Below, one piece after another: positions 27,201 to 61,269 of a stretch of 64,000 nucleotides of DNA. The position numbers were made by a program, and so were the translations under genes. How positions within the stretch are numbered: the stretch's first letter is position 1; the number at the start of each line of letters is the position of its first letter. Under the pieces are notes generated by a model, which had not been told where the DNA came from, ran no database searches, and saw only the letters and a list, made by a program, of their open reading frames with translations. This DNA comes from Stomorhina lunata (taxonomy: Eukaryota > Arthropoda > Insecta > Diptera > Rhiniidae), in assembly GCA_933228675.1 (NCBI GenBank), contig OW121744.1, positions 21,416,536-21,480,535 of the forward strand, written 5' to 3'.

Positions 27201-27380
27201 AGTAATAATGCGAGGTTTTCGATCTGTCTAAATTGGGGATAATCCTCCTGAAGAGATGGCTTAACCAACCATCGAAACGCGTAGAGGAATTTTAGTTTCT
27301 CCGCAAACAATTTTTGGCTTTTTATCAATAAATTGGTCTGTTACATTAATAAATAAATGTAACAGTTTTGGGATCAAATG
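27201..27380 (+). mobile_element. Hammerhead-bearing dispersed repeat, copy 1
   Basis: About 180 bp shared with 37.18-37.35 and 59.62-59.79 kb. Shared blocks, in order: AATG(C/T)GAGGTTTTCG, CTGTCTA, GATAATCCTCCTGA, TAACCAACCATCGAAACGCG, GAGGAA, TTTTTGG(C/T)TTT(T)ATCA, and a TTACATT...AATGTAA hairpin (27341-27362). It interrupts the family B array, which resumes weakly at 27400-27470. Left and right limits are approximate; the 27086-27200 flank may belong to it too. Confidence 0.8.
27243..27288 (+). ncRNA. Hammerhead ribozyme-like motif, degenerate core (copy 1)
   Basis: Stem I TCCTC (27243-27247) pairs with GAGGA (27284-27288). The core reads CTGAAGAG (27248-27255), where the conserved form is CTGATGA, so one catalytic-core base is changed. 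Stem II (GATGG with CCATC) is followed by GAAAC (27274-27278), a two-base-pair stem III over GC, and GTA as cleavage triplet, which still fits NUH. The fold is kept but activity is doubtful. Confidence 0.6.
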
Positions 27381-27399
27381 CGCATAGTTATTCTTTTTG

Positions 27400-27470
27400 A
27401 AGAAAATCTTCAATTTTTATATCTTCTTTATAGAAAATTTTCGATATTAAGATTTTCTATGTAAAAATTT
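27400..27470 (+). repeat. Family B array remnant beyond the inserted repeat
   Basis: Two to three units with CTTTATAGAAAATTTTCGATA and AAGATTTTCTATG continue the array at 24.4-27.1 kb on the far side of the hammerhead-bearing repeat. Confidence 0.75.
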
Positions 27471-36804: not shown

Positions 36805-37165
36805 TAACATTTTTTCTATATAAAAAATTTAATAGAAATTTTTTCAAAAGAATTTTTTTCTTTAAAAACATTTTTAATAGAGTTAAATCTCTCAAAAGAA
36901 AAATTCAATAAAACTTTGTTCCATAGAAAAATTTTTAATTGAAATTTTCTATAAAAAAATTGCAACCGAAATTGTTTCTATTAAAAATTTTTCTATTGAA
37001 AATTTTTATTGGAAATTTTTTTACAGAAAAAATTTTTATTGAAAATTTTTTTATAGAAAAAATTTTTACAGAATTTTCTCTTAAAAATTTTTATGTAGAA
37101 TAAATTTCTATTAAAATTTTTCTATAGAGAAATATATTTTTTGAAAATTTTTAATAGAAAAATTC
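36805..37165 (+). repeat. Family C tandem array 1, left degenerate part
   Basis: About 10-12 degenerate units with ATTGAAATTTT(T)CTATA and TAGAAAAA. It is separated from the main array by the hammerhead-bearing repeat at 37.18-37.35 kb. Confidence 0.85.
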
Positions 37166-37180
37166 AGTCCCTCAAATTAT

Positions 37181-37350
37181 ACATAATGTGAGGTTTTCGC
37201 TCTGTCTAGAATTAGGGATAATCCTCCTGATGAGATGGTCTAACCAACCATCGAAACGCGTCGAGGAAAGGTTTCCCCACCAACATTTTTTGGTTTTATC
37301 AAAAAACTATTTATTACAATAATAAATAATTGTAATAAATTGGGATTCTT
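37181..37350 (+). mobile_element. Hammerhead-bearing dispersed repeat, copy 2 (best conserved)
   Basis: The same element as at 27.20 and 59.62 kb, inserted within the family C array. It runs from ACATAATGTGAGG through the ribozyme-like core (37222-37267), TTTTTTGGTTTTATCA, a TTACAAT...ATTGTAA hairpin (37314-37335) and TTGGGAT. There is no coding region, so it is a short non-autonomous element or a solo terminal region of a larger retroelement. Exact ends and target-site duplication could not be fixed. Confidence 0.85.
37222..37267 (+). ncRNA. Hammerhead ribozyme motif, intact core, minimal type I form
   Basis: All required parts occur in order: stem I TCCTC (37222-37226); core CTGATGA (37227-37233); stem II, six pairs GATGGT with ACCATC, seven-base loop (37234-37252); GAAA (37253-37256); a very short stem III with A-C pairing G-T across GC (37256-37261); cleavage base C37262 after GT; and the second strand of stem I GAGGA (37263-37267), fully complementary to the first. 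Minimal helix III is typical of hammerheads described in Penelope-like elements and retrozymes, where dimers help activity. Self-cleavage is predicted to fall between 37262 and 37263. Assignment as a hammerhead is by motif and pairing, not by test. Confidence 0.82.
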
Positions 37351-37367
37351 AGTGCAATACACTACAG

Positions 37368-39362
37368 TAAAACTTTTTAATGAAAAAATTTCCACTGAAA
37401 ATTTTTCTATAGAAAAAGTCTCTTTTGAAAATTTTTATATAGAAAAAAATTGCTATTGAATATTTTTGATAGAAAAAGTTTTTATTCAAAATTTGTATTT
37501 ATTTATTTATTTCTATCAATTTTTTTTTTTAATTTTTATATAGAAATTTTTTTTATGGGAAATTTTTCTGTAGAAAATTTTTCTATTAAAAATGTTTCTG
37601 CACAAAATTTCTCTAAAAAAAATTCTGTTAAAAATGTTTTTATAAAAAAAAATCTATTTTAAATAGAATTTTTTTCTGTACAAATTTTTTCAATAGAAAA
37701 ATTTTCTACAAATAAACTTTCAATAAAAATGGAAAAAAAATTCTATTGAAAATTTTTATATGGAAAAAATTGTTTAACAAATGCTTCTATAGAAAAAAAT
37801 TCTATAGAAAAAAATTGTATTGAAAATTTTTCGATAGAAAAAATTTTTTTTGAAAATTTTTCTATAGAAAAAAATTGCTTTTGAAAAAATTTGATAGAAA
37901 AAATTTCTATTGAAAATTTTTATTTATTTATTTCTATAGAAAAAATTACTGTTTAAAATTTTTCTATAGAAAATTTTTGTTTTAAAAATTTTTCTGTAGA
38001 AAATTTTTCTATTCTAAAAAAATTTCTATTGAAAATGTTTCTAAAATAAAAAAATTATTATTCAATAGAATTTTTTTATACAAATTTTTTTAATTGAAAA
38101 ATTTTCTACAGAAAAAATAAATATTTTTTTTATTCAAAATTTTTCTTTACAAAAAATTTCTATTGAAAATTTTTTCCATAGAAAAAATTTCTATTGAAAA
38201 TTTTTCTATAGAAAAAATTTCTATTGAAAATTTTTCTATAGAAAAAATTTCTATTGAAAATTTTTCTATAGAAAAAATTACTATTGAAAATTTTTCTATA
38301 GAAAAAATTTATATTTATAATTTTTCTATAGAAAAAAATTCTATTGAATATTTTTCTTTGAAAAAAAATAATTTTGAAAATTTTTATATAGAAAAAATTC
38401 TATTGAAAATTTTTCTATAGAAAAAATTTCTATTGAAAATTTTTCTATAGAAAAAATTTCTATTGAAAATTTTTCTATAGAAAAAATTTCTATTGAAAAT
38501 TTTTCTATAGAAAAAATTTCTATTGAAAATTTTTCTATAGAAAAAATTTCTATTGAAAATTTTTCTATAGAAAAAATTTCTATTGAAAATTTTTCTACAG
38601 AAAAAATTTCTATTGAAAATTTTTCTATAGAAAAAATTTCTATTGAAAATTTTTCTGTAGAAAAAATTTCTATTGAAAATTTTTCTATAGAAAAAGTTTC
38701 TATAAAAAAAATTCTATTAAAAATTTTTCTATAGAAAAAATTTCAGTTGCAAATTTTTCTATAGAAAAAATTTTATTAACAATTTTTCTATAGAAGAAAA
38801 TTTTATTGAAAATTTTCTATAGAAATATTTTCTTTTAAAAATTTTTCTATTGAATTTCTAATGAAAATTTTTCTTTAGAAAAAATTTCTATTGAAAATTT
38901 TTATTTAGAAACAATTTCAGTTACAATTGTTTCTATAGAAAAAATTTCTATTGAAAATTTTTCTATGGAAAAAAATTTTATTGAAAATTTTTATATGGAA
39001 AAAAATTTTGTTGAAAATTTTTATGTAGAAAAAATTTCTTAAAAATTTTTCTATAGAAAAAAATTCTTTGTAAATATTTTCTTTTAAACATTTTTCTATT
39101 GAATTTCTAATGAAAATTTTTCGTTAGAAAAAATTTGTAATGAACATTTTTCTTTAGAAAAAATTTGTAATGAACATTTTTCTTTAGAAAAAATTTGTAA
39201 TGAAAATTTTTGTTTAGAAAAAATTTCTATTGAAAATTTTTCAATAGAAAAATTTTCAATTGAAATTTATTCTATCGAAAAATTTTCAATTGAAATTTTT
39301 TCTATAGAAAAATTTTCAATAGAAATGTTTTTTATAGAAAAATTTTCAATAGAAAAATCAAT
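37368..39362 (+). repeat. Family C tandem array 1, main part, 30-bp satellite
   Basis: About 65 units. From 38160 to 38700 units are nearly identical at exactly 30 bp (lines repeat with no phase shift): TATTGAAAATTTTTCTATAG then AAAAAATTTC. Elsewhere units are degenerate. The core TTTTTCTATAGAAAAA is a palindrome and the linker reads CTATTG. The last units (39240-39360) carry CAATTGAA/CAATAGAA in the opposite sense. Confidence 0.96.
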
Positions 39363-49550: not shown

Positions 49551-49695
49551 GTTTCCAAAACATTCAAATATATAAAAATCGAGTGAAAAGTGCTTGAGTT
49601 ATATGAAGTTTTGTGAAATTTAATCTTAATAAAAACCAATTGGAATGATTGAGAAAATTTATAAATATATAAATACAACAAAACTAAAGTGCTAC
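49551..49695 (+). repeat. Left direct repeat flanking family D array 2
   Basis: About 145 bp from a TTTCCAAAACAT stretch through TATAAAAATCGAGTGAAAAG (from 49571) to CTAAAGTGCT. It recurs in the same orientation at 52092-52253, on the far side of the array, with moderate divergence. Confidence 0.8.
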
Positions 49696-49869: not shown

Positions 49870-52090
49870 TGCACTATAAAATTTTTCTTATAGAAAATTT
49901 TTGATATCAAAATTTTTCTTATAGAAAAATTTTTATATCAAAATTTTTCATACAGAAAATTTTTGATATTAAAATTTTTCTTACAAAAAAATTTTGATAT
50001 CAAATTTTTCTTATAGAAAATTTTTAATATCAAAATTTTTCTTATAGAAAATTTTTGATATCAAATTTTTTTTCTAAAAGATTTTTGATATCAATATTTT
50101 TCTTTTACAAAAATTTTTATATCAAATTTTTTCTTCTACAAAATTATGGTATCAAATTTTTTCTTCTAAAAAATTTTTGATATCAAAATTTTTCTTATAG
50201 AAAATTTTTAGTATCAAAATTTTTCTTATTGAAAATTTTAAATATCAAAATTTTTCTTACAGAAAATTTTTGATATCAAATTTTTTTCTTGAAGAAAATT
50301 TTTGATATCAAAATTTTTTTTATAGAAAATTTTTGATATCAAAATTTTTCTTATAGAAAATTTTTGATTTCAAAATTTTTCTTATAGAAAATGTTTGCTA
50401 TCAAAATTTTTCTTATAGAAAATTTTTGATATCAAAATTTTTCTTATAGAAAATTTTTGATATCAAAATTTTTCTTATAGAAAATTTTTGATATCAAAAT
50501 TTTTTTTATACAAAATTTTTGTATCAAATTTTTTCTTCTAAAAAATTTTTGATATCAAATTTTTTTCTTGAAGAAAATTTTTGATATCAAAATTTTTCTT
50601 ATAGAAAATTTTTGATATCAAAATTTTTCTTATAGAAAATTTTTGATTCCAAAATTTTTCTTATAGAAAATGTTTGCTATCAAAATTTTTCTTATAGAAA
50701 ATTTTTGATATCAAAATTTTTCTTATAAAAAATTTTTGATATCAAAATTTTTCTTATAGAAAATTTTTGATATCAAAATTTTTTTTATAAAAAATTTTGA
50801 TATCAAAATTTTTTTTTTTAGAAAATTTTTGATATCGAATTTTTTCTTCTAGAAAATTTTTGATATACAATTTTTTCTTCTAGAAAATTTTTGATATTAA
50901 AATTTTTCTTATTGAAAATTTTTGATATCAAAATTTTTCTTATAGAAAATTTTTGATATCAATTTTTTTCTTTTAGAAAATCTTTTCTTCTAGAAAATTT
51001 TTGATATCAATTTTTTTCTTCTAGAAAATTTTTAATGTCAAATTTTTTCTTCTAGAAAATTTTTGATATCAAAATTTTTCTTCTAGAAAATTTTCAATAT
51101 CAAAATTTTTCTTCCAGAAAATTTTTAATATCAACTTTTTTCTACAAGAAAATTTTTTATATCAAATTTTTTCTTCTAGAAAATTTTTGATATCAAATTT
51201 TTTTCTTCCAGAATATTTTTAATATCAAATTTTTTCTTCAAGAAAATTTTTGATATCAAATTTTTTTTTTTAGAAAATTTTTAATATCAAACTTTTCTTC
51301 TAGAAAATTTTTGATATCAAATTGTTTCTTCCAGAAAATTTTTAATATCAAATTGTTTCTTCTAAAAAGTTTTAGATATCAATATTTTTCTACTAGAAAA
51401 TTTTTGATTTCAAATTTTTTTCATCGACAAAATTTTTGATATCAAAATTTTTCTTCTAGAAAATTTTTAATATCAAAATTTTTCTTCCAGAAAATTTTTA
51501 ATATCAAATTTTTTCTTCTGGAGAATTTTTAATATCAAAGTTTTTCTTCTAGAAAATTTTTGATCTCAAATTTTTTCTTCTAGAAAATTTTAATATCAAG
51601 TTTTTTGTTCTAGAAAATTTTTGCTAGAAAATTTTTTTCTTCTACAAAATTATTGATATCAAATTTTTGCCTAAAAAAATTTTGATATCAAATTTTTTTC
51701 TTTAGAAAATTTTTGATTTCAAATTTTTTTTTAAAGAAAATTTTTGATATTAAATTTTTTCTTAACGAAAATTTTTAAAATCAAATTTTTTCTTTTAAAA
51801 AATGTTTGATATCAAATTTTTTTCTCTAGAAAATTTTTGATATCACATTTTTTTCTTTTAGAAAATTTTTGATATCAAATTTTTTCTTCTAAAAAATTTT
51901 TATCAAATTTTTCTTATAGACAATTTTTGATAAAACCTTTTTCTTTTAGAAAATTTTTGATATCAAAATTTTTCTTTTAGAAAATTTTTGATATCAAAAT
52001 TTTTCCTATAGAAGATTTTTTATATCAAAATTTTTCTTTTAGAATTTTCTTGATATCAAAATTTTTTCTTTTAGGAAATTTGTTTATATT
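49870..52090 (+). repeat. Family D tandem array 2, 31-bp unit
   Basis: About 70 units of about 31 bp: GATATCAAAATTTTTCTTAT then AGAAAATTTTT. The first half is mainly CTTATAG type, the second half (50840-51640) mainly CTTCTAG type, mirroring the two subfamilies in array 1. A nine-unit higher-order repeat is visible: marked variants (CTTGAAGAAA at 50288 and TGTTTGCTATC at 50392) recur 279 bases later (50567, 50671). Confidence 0.96.
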
Positions 52091-52091
52091 A

Positions 52092-52253
52092 TATTTCCAC
52101 AACATAAAATTATATAAAAATCGAGTGAAAAGTGATTGAGTTATATTAAGTTTTGTAAAATGTGAACTAAACAAGTACTAATTGAAATGATCAGGAAAAT
52201 TTATAGATATATATATATAAAGTACGTTTCTGTACAATAAACCTAAAGTGCTC
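52092..52253 (+). repeat. Right direct repeat flanking family D array 2
   Basis: Second copy of the 49551-49695 segment, starting ATTTCCACAACAT, with TATAAAAATCGAGTGAAAAG from 52113 and ending CTAAAGTGCT, with a small TA-repeat insertion at 52207-52218. The copies bracket the array like a segmental duplication. Confidence 0.8.
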
Positions 52254-52991: not shown

Positions 52992-54445
52992 ATCTTAGTC
53001 TATGTCTTAGTCTATGTCTAAGTCTATGTCTCAGTCTATGTCTTAGTCTATGTCTTAGTCTATGTCTTAGTCTATGTCTTAGTCTATGTCTTAGTCTAGG
53101 TCTTAGTCTATGTCTTAGTCTAGGTCTTAGTCTATGTCTTAGTCTATGTCTTAGTCTATGTCTTAGTCTATGTCTTAGTCTATGTCTTAGTCTATGTCTT
53201 AGTCTATGTCTTAGTCTATGTCTTAGTCTATGTCTTAGTCTATGTCTTAGTCTATGTCTTAGTCTATGTCTTAGTCTATGTCTTAGTCTATGTCTTAGTC
53301 TATGTCTTAGTCTATGTCTTAGTCTATGTCTTAGTCTATGTCTTAGTCTATGTCTTAGTCTATGTCTTAGTCTATGTCTTAGTCTATGTCTTAGTCTATG
53401 TCTTAGTCTATGTTTTAGTTTATGTCTTAGTCTATGTCTTAGTCTATTTCTTAGTCTATGTCTTAGTCTATGTCTTAGTCTATGTCTTAGTTTATGTCTT
53501 AGTCTATGTCTTAGTCTATTTCTTAGTCTATGTCTTAGTCTATGTCTTAGTCTATATCTTAGTCTATGTTTTAGTCTATGTCTTAGTCTATGTCTTAGTC
53601 CATGTCTTATTCTATTTCTTAGTCTATGTCCTAGTCTATATCTTAGTCTATGTCTTATTCTATGTCTTATTCTATGTCTTATTCTATGTCTTATTCTATG
53701 TCTTAGTCTATATCTTAGTCTATGTCTTAGTCTATGTCTTAGTCTATGTCTTAGGCTATGTCTTAGTCTATGTTTTAGTCTATGTCTTAGTCTATGTCTT
53801 AGTCTATGTCTTAGTTTATGTCTAGTCTATGTCTAAGTCTATATCTTAGTCTATGTCTTAGTCTATGTCTTAGTCTATGTCTTAGGCTATGTCTTAGTCT
53901 ATGTTTTAGTTTATGTCTTAGTCTATGTCTTAGTCTATTTTTTAGTCTATGTCTTAGTCTATATCTTATTCTATGTCTTAGTCTATGTCTTAGTCTATGT
54001 CTTAATCTATGTCTTAGTCTACGTCTTAGTCTATGTCTTAGTCTATGTCTTAGTCTATGTCTTAGTCTATGTCTTAGTCTATGTCTTAGTCTATGTCTTA
54101 TTCCATATCTTAGTCTATGTCTTAGTCTATGTCTTAGTCTATGTCTTAGTCTATGTCTTAGTCTATGCCTTAGTCTATGTCTTAGTCTATGTCTTAGTCT
54201 ATGTCTTAGTCTATGTCTTAGTATATGTCTTAGTCTATGTCTTAGTCTATGTCTTAGTCTATGTCTTAGTCTATGTCTTAGTCTATGTCTTAGTCTATTC
54301 TTAGTCTATGTCATGGTCTATATCTTTGTCTAAGTCAATGTCTTGGTCTTAGTCTTAGTCTATGTCTTGGTCTAATTTGTAGTCTATGGCTTACTCTTAA
54401 TCTTAGTATATGTCATAGTCTCTGTCTTTAACTATTTCTTAGTCT
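52992..54445 (+). repeat. Family E tandem array 1, 12-bp satellite
   Basis: About 120 copies of TATGTCTTAGTC, almost perfect from 53120 to 53400, with scattered single-base variants elsewhere (TATATC, TATTTC, TTATTC) and a ragged end at 54300-54445. It has much less A+T than the other families. It is the reverse complement of the 56.9-59.3 kb array. Confidence 0.98.
53818..54333 (+). other. Repeat-derived open frame, 171 codons (not a gene)
   Basis: One frame of the 12-bp unit reads a four-residue repeat SLCL, with stops in the other two plus-strand frames of the perfect unit. It starts only where a one-base slip creates ATG in this frame. There is no non-repeat domain. Confidence 0.85.
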
Positions 54446-56867: not shown

Positions 56868-59283
56868 AAGAACTAAGACATAAACTAGGACATATGCTAA
56901 GACATATGCTAAGACATCGACTAAGACATAGACTTAGACATAGACTAAGATATAGACTAAGACCTAGACTAAGACAAAGACTAAGACATAGACTAAGCCA
57001 TAGACTTAGACATAGAATACGACATAGACTAAGATATAGACTAAGACATAGACTAAGACATAGACTAAGACATAGACTAAGACATAGACTAAGACATAGA
57101 CTGAGACATAGACTAAGACATAGACTAAGACATAGAATAAGACATAGACATAGACTAAGACATAGACTAAGGCATAGACTAAGACATAGACTAAGACATA
57201 GACAAAGACATAAACTAAGACATAGACTAAGATATAGACTAAGACATAGACTAAGACATAGACTAAGACATAGACTAAGACATAGACTAAGACATAGACT
57301 AAGACATAGACTAAGACATAGACTAAGACTTAGACTAAGACATAGACTAAGACATAGACTAAGATATAGACTAAGATATAGACTAAGACATAGACTAAGA
57401 CATAGACTAAGACATAGACTAAGACATAGACTAAGACATAGACTAAGATATAGACTAAGACATAGACTAAGACATAGACTAAGACATAGACTAAGACATA
57501 GACTGAGACATAGACTAAGACATAGACTAAGACATAGACTAAGACATAGACTAAGACATAGACTAAGACATAGACTAAGACATAGACTAAGACATAGACT
57601 AAGACATAGACTAAGACATAGACTAAGACATAGACTAAGACATAGACTAAGACATAGACTAAGACATAGACTAAGACATAGACTAAGACATAGACTAAGA
57701 CATAGACTAAGACATAGACTAAGACATAGACTAAGACATAGACTAAGACATAGACTAAGACATAGACTAAGACATAGACTAAGACATAGACTAAGACATA
57801 GACTAAGACATAGACTAAGACATAGACTAAGACATAGACTAAGACATAGACTAAGACATAGACTAAGACATAGACTAAGACATAGACTAAGACATAGACT
57901 AAGACATAGACTAAGACATAGACTAAGACATAGACTAAGACATAGACTAAGACATAGACTAAGACATAGACTAAGACATAGACTAAGACTTAGACTAAGA
58001 CATAGACTAAGACATAGACTAAGACATAGACTAAGACATAGACTAAGACATAGACTAAGACATAGACTAAGACATAGACTAAGACATAGACTAAGACATA
58101 GACTAAGACATAGACTAAGACATAGACTAAGACATACCTTAAGACATAGACTAAGACATAGGCTAAGACATAGACTAAGACATAGACTAAGACATAGACT
58201 AAGACATAGACTAAGACATAGACTAAGACATAGAATAAGACATAGACTAAGACATAGACTAAGACATAGACTAAGACATAGACTAAGACATAGACTAAGA
58301 CATAGACTAAGACATAGACAAAGACATAGACTAAGACATAAACTAAGACATAGACTAAGACATAGACTAAGACATAGACTAAGACATAGACAAAGACATA
58401 GACTAAGACATAAACTAAGACATAGACTGAGACATAGACTAAGACATAGACTAAGACATAGACTAAGACATAAACTAAGACATAGACTAAGACATAAACT
58501 AAGACAAAGACTAAGACATAGACTAAGACATAGACTAAGACATAGACTAAGACAAAAACTAAGACATAGACTAAGACATAGACTAAGACATAGACTAAGA
58601 CATAGACGAAGACATAGACTAAGACATAGACTAAGACATAGAGTAAGACATAGGCTAAGATATAGACTAAGACATAGACTAAGTCATAGACTAAGACATA
58701 GACTAAGACATTGACTAAAACATAGACAAAGACATATACTAAGACATAGACTAAGACATAGACTAAGACATAGACTAAGACATAGACTAAGACATAGACT
58801 AAGATATAGACTAAGACATAGACTAAGACATAGACTAAGACAGTGACTAAGATATTAACTAAGACAAAGACTAAGACATAGACTAAGACATAGACTAAGA
58901 CATAGACTAAGACATAGACTAAGACTTAGACTAAGACTTAGACTAAGACATAGACTAAGACATAGACTAAGACATAGACTAAGACATAGACTGAGACATA
59001 GACTAAGACATAGACTAAGACATAGACTAAGACAAAGACTAAGACATAGACATAGACTTAGACATAGAATAAGACATAGACTAAGACATAGACTGAGACA
59101 TAGACTAAGACATAGACTAAGACATAGAATAAGACATAGACTAAGACATAGACTAAGACATAGACTAAGACATAGACTAAGACATTGACTAAGATATTAA
59201 CTAAGACAAAGACTAAGACATAGACTAAGACATAGATTTAGACATAGAATAAGACATAGACTAAGATATAGACTAAGAAATGG
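56868..59283 (-). repeat. Family E tandem array 2, inverted 12-bp satellite
   Basis: About 200 copies of GACTAAGACATA, the exact reverse complement of the unit at 53.0-54.4 kb. The most perfect part is 57500-57960. Variants (GACATAAACTAA, GACAAAGACTAA, GACTTAGACTAA) increase after 58280. Slightly shifted units with GACATAGACATAGACT occur at 57143 and 59046. Confidence 0.98.
56894..58714 (+). other. Repeat-derived open frame, 606 codons (not a gene)
   Basis: The longest open frame in the window. It translates to a four-residue repeat RLRH throughout, because the 12-bp unit has one stop-free frame on this strand. It would give a highly basic, purely repetitive protein with no other sequence, and no promoter or splice evidence is visible. 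The frame is a consequence of unit length; it should be treated as coding only if transcripts and peptides were found. Confidence 0.85.
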
Positions 59284-59615: not shown

Positions 59616-59790
59616 GATTGTTATCATATTTTCGAACTGTCTAAAAGTAGAGATACTCCTTCTGAAGAAGGCCTAACCAACCATCGAAACGCGTCGAGGA
59701 AACAAACATTTCTTGGCTTTTATCAATAATTGTCTTTTACATTTATAAATAAATAAATTAATTAGACTGGGATCAAGTGTGAATAATTTT
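59616..59790 (+). mobile_element. Hammerhead-bearing dispersed repeat, copy 3 (most diverged)
   Basis: Shares TTTTCGAACTGTCTA, CTTCTGAAGAAG, the block CTAACCAACCATCGAAACGC, GTCGAGGAAA, TTGGCTTTTATCAATAA and CTGGGATCAAGTG with copies 1 and 2. The downstream hairpin seen in the other copies is broken here (TTACATTTATAAATAAATAA). Unlike them, it does not interrupt a palindromic array; it lies about 330 bp beyond the 12-bp array. Confidence 0.8.
59657..59700 (+). ncRNA. Hammerhead ribozyme-like motif, degenerate (copy 3)
   Basis: Stem I TCCTT (59657-59661) pairs with GAGGA (59696-59700) through four Watson-Crick pairs and one G-T pair. The core reads CTGAAGA instead of CTGATGA, stem II is two bases shorter and weakly paired, while CGAAAC (59685-59690) and the GTC triplet (59693-59695) are kept. 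Probably inactive. Confidence 0.5.
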
Positions 59791-61269
59791 TCTTTTTCAA
59801 TAATACATATTTACATCTTGACAATTTTGTTATTTTTTGATAAAGAAAAATATTTCTTAGAAACTAAATTTTTCTATAAAATTATTTCCTTTGAAAGTGA
59901 GTTTTTTCTATGGTATTTTTTATAGAAAAAATTTTTTTCTTATATAAAAAAATTGTTATACAAGAAATTTGCTTAAAAGTCTTCAATATTTAAATTTCTT
60001 TTAAATGATCATTTTGGATTCTATGGTTTTATGAATAATGGAAAAGATCCCAAAACTGTTACGCTTTAAGGCTGATTAAATAGCTATTTTTACTTTTTAA
60101 AAAGTATACAATAAAATCTAATTACACTTAGTAACAAAAAAAAAAGGACTAGGACCCCTTCAAACAAAACAAAAAACGTATAAGACCCAGAAAAACAAAG
60201 GAAAATCAAATGGTGTTAAAATCAAGGATTACATTGCTATTTTTTCCTCAACAGAATAACAAAACAAAAAAAGGAACAAACCATTTTATTATTCTGACAA
60301 ACAACGAAAAGGTGCTAAAAAATGGTTACAATAAAGAAAAATTACAAAAAATAAATTATGATGGTGGTGTTTTTTTTTTGCAAAAGGATATTAATAGAAA
60401 ATGATGTTTAGAAAATTAATGTTAGTCATAACATATTGTTGTCATAATTTGAATTAATAATAGACATTAGAAAAAAGCACACGCATACACTCAAATATTT
60501 AAATGCATTAATTACACACGACATTGACATTGTGTGTGTGTGTATGGGTGAATATCAGAACAAAGGAAAAAGGTTGCGGTTGGCATGAAAAACAAAGGGG
60601 ATGAAGGCAGGGAGAGATGATTTTACCACTACCAACGGAAGTTGTTTCATTTTCAATATAATTTGTGATTCAATAAAGTTGTGGAAAAAGGCGTAGCATT
60701 AGATTATTTTTCCATAAGGGCTGGAATTGTGCATTTCTTTTTATTTTTTCGTTTTCGAAAAGCAGCAAAACTAAACGAATAAATACAAAATTTTAGTAGT
60801 AAATGCATTTTATGGTCGTAGTACACACTCAGGCTATTTTAAACACATACACTCAAACTGTCTATGTATCTAGATACTTTCTAACTATTCCTCTGTGTAA
60901 GAGTGTTTGTTCACTCTACTCCATTTCACTACAAAACAGGATATATGCGGAGTTAACCTTGTTATGGATTTTTTTTTTTTCGAAAAAATGTTCATCCTGT
61001 TTTACCAAAAATAGGTATAAAAAGAAATTACTATTTACAGGGGTAGTTTTTTTTCTTCTTTTCTGGGAGTTGTTGTTCTAACGGTTCAATAAAATAGAAG
61101 AAGTATCCTTGGGCTTTAAGAGTCTCTATATGTGTATGGGTAAGAGTGCAAGTGTGTTTGCTTTCAAATGTCTGTAGTTTCGGAGTTTAATAAACACAAA
61201 TTGGAATTTTATGTTTCAAAATAGACGACGAGACTTTGGAATAAAAATTGTAACCAGAAACTTCCCAGC
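59791..61269. other. Spacer with a TG microsatellite, no supported gene
   Basis: AT-rich. Contains TTGTGTGTGTGTGTATG (60530-60546). Frames at 60210-60404 and 60803-61081 have no domain. No RNA gene recognised. Confidence 0.5.

Follow-up and report, generated by a model that had tools for sequence, protein, structure and literature searches.

A non-coding hammerhead repeat in a fly genome with insertion ends that point to Penelope-like elements

Introduction

Minimal type I hammerhead ribozymes lie in the pseudo-LTRs (pLTRs) of Penelope-like elements (PLEs), as described in excerpts of the reports on Anolis PAc (PMC11167929) and Adineta vaga Pen (PMC3846280). According to these excerpts, the pLTRs of PLEs occur in tandem and inverted, a tail of 30-40 bp is optional and duplications measure 8-10 bp; the elements cut both strands and start reverse transcription internally (PMC11167929, PMC3846280). 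The tail, which in the Adineta PLE is found on one of two inverted pLTRs (excerpt of PMC3846280), is explained in the Anolis excerpt by two internal reverse-transcription start sites (PMC11167929). The latter also states that uncut RNA is the main template in vitro and that the ribozyme cut only with PLE protein (PMC11167929). In an excerpt of one review, the role of PLE hammerheads is called a mystery (PMC7761336).

Hammerheads also occur in metazoan retrozymes, which in animals form circles of ~170-400 nt (excerpt of PMC7229834). Their repeats, in the words of the review excerpt, hold no motif revealing which autonomous retrotransposon moves them (PMC7761336). Hammerheads in PLEs and in retrozymes are thus both known already. 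A literature search, with key work of 2014 and 2017 outside its reach, returned in the excerpts covered no non-coding hammerhead repeat with PLE-signature insertion ends, and we claim no priority.

In this study, we examine a hammerhead motif in a stretch of 64,000 bases (the window), together with other copies and the PLE genes of the same assembly. The element that carries it resembles Anolis PAc and Adineta vaga Pen, as far as the excerpts describe them, in its minimal hammerhead, its tandem and head-to-head copies, an optional 30-40 bp tail on one arm, AT-rich target sites with short duplications and a hammerhead at the start of an open frame; unlike them, it has no coding region and is built from a 488-nt unit (PMC11167929, PMC3846280). 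With metazoan retrozymes, as excerpted, it shares small non-coding tandem repeats, one type I hammerhead per unit and low G+C (PMC7229834, PMC7761336), whereas its unit is longer than their circles (PMC7229834) and it has a likely internal TATA-like box, retrozymes being said to be promoterless (PMC7761336). It further differs from them in having insertion ends that point to PLE enzymes and a hammerhead that is minimal rather than canonical. We consider it highly probable that the element is a non-autonomous, non-coding, retrozyme-like PLE derivative, mobilised in trans by PLE proteins.

Results

The hammerhead motif

The plus strand at 37222-37267 reads TCCTC-CTGATGA-GATGGT(CTAACCA)ACCATC-GAA-ACGCGT-C-GAGGA, in which CUGANGA, stem II, GAAA, UH and stem I follow one another in the order and topology of a minimal type I hammerhead. 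Its parts, and a hairpin beside it, are:

37222..37267, plus strand: minimal type I hammerhead (sequence, descriptor scan, PLE-trained covariance model)
37222-37226/37263-37267, plus strand: stem I
37227-37233, plus strand: core CTGATGA
37234-37239/37247-37252, plus strand: stem II
37253-37255, plus strand: GAA
37256..37261, plus strand: self-complementary ACGCGT, stem III (sequence, descriptor scan, dimer energy)
after C37262, plus strand: predicted cut
37310..37339, plus strand: 11-bp hairpin TTTATTACAAT/ATTGTAATAAA, 3' of the hammerhead (folds, alignment)

Judged by its sequence, this is a genuine hammerhead-type motif, and cleavage of its RNA is predicted. A preliminary description of the locus had proposed a minimal type I hammerhead cut after C37262; all parts are present in order, and we predict the same cut position. 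A descriptor scan of both strands of the window, with stem I and stem II each at least 3, found exactly two motifs, at 37222-37267 and 27243-27288. Such motifs are rare or absent in dinucleotide shuffles (n=300), which gave a mean of 0.19 per window at this setting, 0.03 with both stems at least 4, and 0 with stem I at least 5 and stem II at least 6.

The two-pair stem III first described has to be revised, as it would leave a 2-nt loop; what is present is one A-U pair closing CGCG. Six pairs of the ACGCGU palindrome are possible only between two ribozymes, and because stem III is this palindrome, cutting probably requires a dimer. In energy models, the double hammerhead of two strands reaches -30.7 kcal/mol and one monomer -11.1. 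The palindrome and the modelled dimer energy agree with the earlier suggestion of a short stem III suited to dimers, and the hammerhead would probably cut as a dimer through ACGCGU/ACGCGU. The minimum-energy folds (dimer -32.3, monomer -12.3) lie slightly below the hammerhead forms in energy and draw core bases into an alternative stem, which counts against our preferred reading. Folding of a 61-nt stretch is unremarkable (z -0.31), which is no argument against a hammerhead because the hammerhead core is unpaired. Small hammerhead variants that cleave as dimers were reportedly described by Lunse et al. in 2017; going by the title, a truncated stem III, PLE association and dimer action are common to those variants and the motif here. 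The type I hammerhead of the axolotl retrozyme likewise consists of a single pair capped by a palindromic tetraloop at this place and works much better as a dimer (excerpt of PMC7229834).

Copies in the window and in the assembly

The motif sits in one of three copies of a dispersed repeat in the window, all on the plus strand:

37162..37385, plus strand: young non-coding element copy, unit positions 1-224, 99.55% identity over 224 nt
37373..37381, plus strand: 3' terminal motif CTTTTTAAT, unit 212-220, first of the family's two 3'-end sites
27205..27404, plus strand: older element copy, hammerhead intact at 27243-27288, 83% over 159 columns
59629..59803, plus strand: oldest of the three copies, hammerhead at ~59657-59700 with stem II broken
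36942..37164, no strand assigned: AT-rich tandem array left of the insertion
37369..39356, no strand assigned: AT-rich tandem array right of the insertion (rows 37369-37494 and 37397-39356)

The young copy has one mismatch to a 488-nt unit (L009:3088-3575), and strict extension places its untailed 3' end at unit 220. The motif had been placed inside a satellite array; it belongs in fact to a 224-bp insertion by which an AT-rich array is interrupted. In the copy at 27 kb, the hammerhead reads CTGAAGA and GTA and has lost the loop-closing pair of stem II, and the stem of the 11-bp hairpin is altered on both sides in the alignment.

AT-rich tandem arrays make up more than half of the window, which has a G+C content of 21.7% and of which TRF masks 34,256 of 64,000 bases; many have palindromic 15/31-bp units, such as AATTTTTCTATAGAAAA. 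The 12-bp satellites TCTTAGTCTATG (52993-54445) and ACTAAGACATAG (56872-59278) are one unit in opposite orientations. Direct repeats at 49555-49678 and 52097-52220 (124 bp, 82% identical) flank the array at 49878-52096, and inverted dispersed repeat pairs occur at 1315-1503/22138-22316 (85% identical) and at 23786-23883/32527-32624 (83% identical).

A 181-nt query against the assembly gave 1013 candidates, of which the best 40 were scored; 40/40 were identical to it, all on contig C1. This identity speaks for recent spread and is not an age profile, because only the best candidates were scored. With three copies in the window and many young ones in the assembly, the element is the short dispersed repeat that the preliminary description had suspected, and its recent mobility is supported as well. 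The proposed fly origin is borne out by an SLX1-like gene of the assembly, which is 87% identical to that of Cochliomyia hominivorax over 85% of the query and by which the host would be a calyptrate fly. No exact 20-mer match was found in viral_contigs, and the motif letters, searched in paper texts, led to no paper on ribozymes by title.

The copies that we studied (L001-L033, all on contig C1) were fetched by perfect match to unit 19-199. They are single, head to tail with a 488-nt period, or head to head, with one hammerhead per unit. Of 47 places that differ by at most 8 mismatches, 42 have identical hammerheads, which is no evidence of selection because the copies were fetched by identity. 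L022, L026 and L033 share flanks and were counted as one event, and L007 and L013 repeat L006. In L005, one insertion has been duplicated together with its satellite surroundings (1472-1910 and 2466-2904, 994-bp spacing), and therefore arrays expand after insertion. A reading frame that starts in the hammerhead core stops after 30 codons, and the unit holds no reverse transcriptase and GIY-YIG endonuclease frame of its own; the element is therefore at most a non-autonomous PLE derivative.

Covariance models

At the gathering score, Rfam reported no family for the hammerhead motif. With a 701-base stretch, the sole hammerhead match was a poor one to Hammerhead_3 (15.6 bits, E 3.1); with a 66-base stretch, RF00163 Hammerhead_1 matched 37222-37267 at 22.0 bits (E 0.0011), below its cut-off of 34, and the 27 kb copy at 16.7 bits (E 0.06). 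Rfam also gave no hammerhead match, at E up to 5, in seven sources (11 kb) with PLE-adjacent hammerheads of the same genome. Since these were missed too, the Rfam miss is a limit of the library.

A second model was trained on nine hammerheads that lie 3' of PLE endonuclease frames in this assembly; copies of the element were not among them. Near-identical hammerheads and the degenerate L077 were excluded; by regular expression, L070, L072, L073, L074 and L079 had no hammerhead. In the nine, 98.8% of cells are paired and two-sided changes occur in 7/9 pairs, and their covariation score was reached by 0/500 shuffles. Over the 64 kb, this model placed 27243-27288 at rank 1 (21.1 bits, E 0.0015) and 37222-37267 at rank 2 (19.8 bits, E 0.0034); the 59 kb copy came fifth of nine (12.4 bits, E 0.46), under two AT-rich background matches. 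Recognition by a covariance model, named as a check in the preliminary description, accordingly failed at the Rfam cut-off and succeeded with the PLE-trained model. Together with the PLE hallmarks of the insertions, the latter result upholds the kinship to Penelope elements to which the preliminary description had pointed.

Insertion ends and flank duplications

We read the 3' ends of 20 single insertions and 9 complete double-armed events, with duplicated loci merged. The 38 ends concentrate at two sites, 18 at unit 216-224 (ACTTTTTAA) and 17 at unit 256-264 (CCTTTTTAA), the other three lying at unit 247, 214 and 214. For L014 (257) and L021 (258), BLAST ends were used, strict extension having halted at 243 and 240 because of mismatches. 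The two CTTTTTAA sites are spaced 40 nt apart. Exactly one arm carries the tail in 9/9 complete head-to-head pairs, where 49.5% would be expected if the arms were independent (p 0.0018); with the incomplete pair L011 taken as a failure, which counts against our preferred reading, p becomes 0.0099. The element thus has the optional 30-40 bp 3' tail on one inverted arm and the tandem and head-to-head copies of a PLE.

Words shared between flanks show that it also has short target-site duplications. The longest words common to both flanks measure 12-14 bp in six of eight pairs (8 in L024, 9 in L014; L005 lies in an array and is unusable for this comparison). When flanks from different loci were combined, a shared word of at least 12 occurred in 0/56 combinations, and the observed sum was matched by 1 of 20000 permutations. 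In 18 single copies, the excess of flank words is small (mean 7.6 vs 6.4; 33/20000 permutations).

Half of the single insertions (10/20) have their 5' ends within unit 370-421, an interval preceded by a TATA-like TTTATAGCAC (332-341); the nominal p of 0.0007 is against an even spread over the 308 positions accessible in this sample, and the interval was picked post hoc. Ends at 370-421 suggest linear transcripts initiated inside the unit; multimeric or circular RNA is needed for copies that extend beyond this interval or span several units. Of the eight arms that end between unit 20 and 200 (69, 69, 93, 109, 133, 142, 156 and 158), none stops at the cut site, 102, which counts against our preferred reading. 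The lack of an end at 102 agrees with the Anolis element, for which the excerpt names uncut RNA as the main template in vitro (PMC11167929). Hammerhead cutting may have a role in RNA processing, and the inserted template need not come from it.

PLE genes of the same genome

A Pfam search for GIY-YIG, with 14 candidates scored, led to two places, the SLX1-like host gene and one PLE fragment. The fragment, used as a protein query, gave the PLE set of the genome: among 206 candidate endonuclease matches, 150 were scored, and 11 lie in open frames of at least 830 aa. The RVT_1 domain was present in 4/4 PLE frames scanned, with GIY-YIG above cut-off in one. No coding PLE that shares the unit was found at 30 PLE loci and 12 further flanks, and this counts against our preferred reading. 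At the 30 loci, the matches to the unit were an old copy beside a PLE (L060) and short stretches (L040, L039); the 12 flanks yielded short AT-rich matches only, the best of which (34-nt, L075) lies within the hairpin directly behind the hammerhead of that PLE.

PLE hammerheads of this genome (L038-L047, L059, L067, L068, L069, L071, L075, L076, L078) have an ATAT or ACGT stem III and an extra A/U before stem II, and a hairpin often follows them. The motif here differs from the nine used for training in its 6-nt palindromic stem III and in lacking the one extra base that they carry before stem II, and the latter counts against our preferred reading.

Discussion

The 3' ends, the one-tail pairs, the flank duplications and the PLE genes of the genome point to PLE proteins acting in trans. 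A course of events can be proposed in which the RNA of the element is probably transcribed from its internal promoter, and a PLE reverse transcriptase/GIY-YIG endonuclease from another locus would bind this RNA 3' of the hammerhead. The enzyme would cut both strands of AT-rich DNA ~12-14 nt apart, and each DNA end would have its own internal start site for copying of the RNA, the two sites lying 40 nt apart. Two cDNAs would yield head-to-head copies, and multimeric or circular RNA would yield head-to-tail copies. The hammerhead most likely acts as a dimer, with two ACGCGU segments paired over 6 bp as stem III, and would process multimeric transcripts to 488-nt units. That pLTRs, in the absence of PLE coding sequence, suffice for integration in trans is indicated by an Adineta vaga NRPS gene copied with PLE pLTRs (excerpt of PMC3846280); there a host gene is carried, whereas here it is a short non-coding unit in many copies (PMC3846280).

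One alternative is a relic, in which PLE proteins move the element and the hammerhead is retained only as part of a protein-binding or start-codon region and has ceased to cut RNA. This is unlikely, if not negligibly so. In the Anolis PLE, core mutants left insertion in vitro unaffected and RNA reads showed no ends at the cut site (excerpt of PMC11167929), and the identical hammerheads of copies fetched by identity say nothing on selection; however, covariation of core and stems is seen among the PLE families of the genome, and the diverged 27 kb copy retains the core, differing only at position 7, in the loop, at the loop-closing pair and at H17. We regard as decidedly improbable a strict metazoan retrozyme, whose self-cleaved transcripts, ligated to circles, are the template and whose mover is an unknown retrotransposon. 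Non-coding units in tandem, with a single type I hammerhead in each, are what such an element would have, its circles have the size quoted above (~170-400 nt), and some copies exceed one unit (L001, at 508 nt, L009 and L010). It is at odds with the arm ends between unit 20 and 200, of which 0/8 lie at the cut site, and with 5' ends behind a TATA-like box (10/20), the pattern of linear transcripts, and stem I, which has no loop in the motif as read, would probably not allow loop 1-loop 2 contacts.

A DINE-1/mini-me Helitron, or a satellite unit that resembles a hammerhead by chance, is hardly credible. DINE-1/mini-me elements are abundant in flies and hold GTCY microsatellites and internal repeats (excerpts of PMC2374699 and PMC3630058), and copies here contain CTGTCT and adjoin AT-rich repeats. 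We considered a DINE-1/mini-me Helitron for this CTGTCT tract and the neighbouring repeats and rejected it on the insertion ends: a Helitron, with its subterminal inverted repeats, has fixed termini and no target duplication, whereas here the 5' ends vary, the flanks are duplicated, arms stand head to head and 3' ends occur at two sites 40 nt apart. A chance match is opposed by the PLE-trained model, which recovers the motif, and by shuffles, which seldom or never match it.

For the PLE derivative that we favour, the ends of young insertions can be read and they implicate PLEs, of which the same genome also has long open frames. With a 488-nt unit, two RNA start sites and a one-tail-per-pair rule, both the mover of retrozymes and the role of PLE hammerheads can be tested in one fly. 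There is an even chance, in our view, that small non-coding repeats with hammerheads in animals parasitise the Penelope machinery and that a PLE dimer assigns the start sites. If so, insertion ends would identify the enzyme class, which for retrozymes earlier work had been unable to deduce, and the pairing of a tailed with an untailed arm would reflect a PLE protein dimer that gives each target strand one RNA start site.
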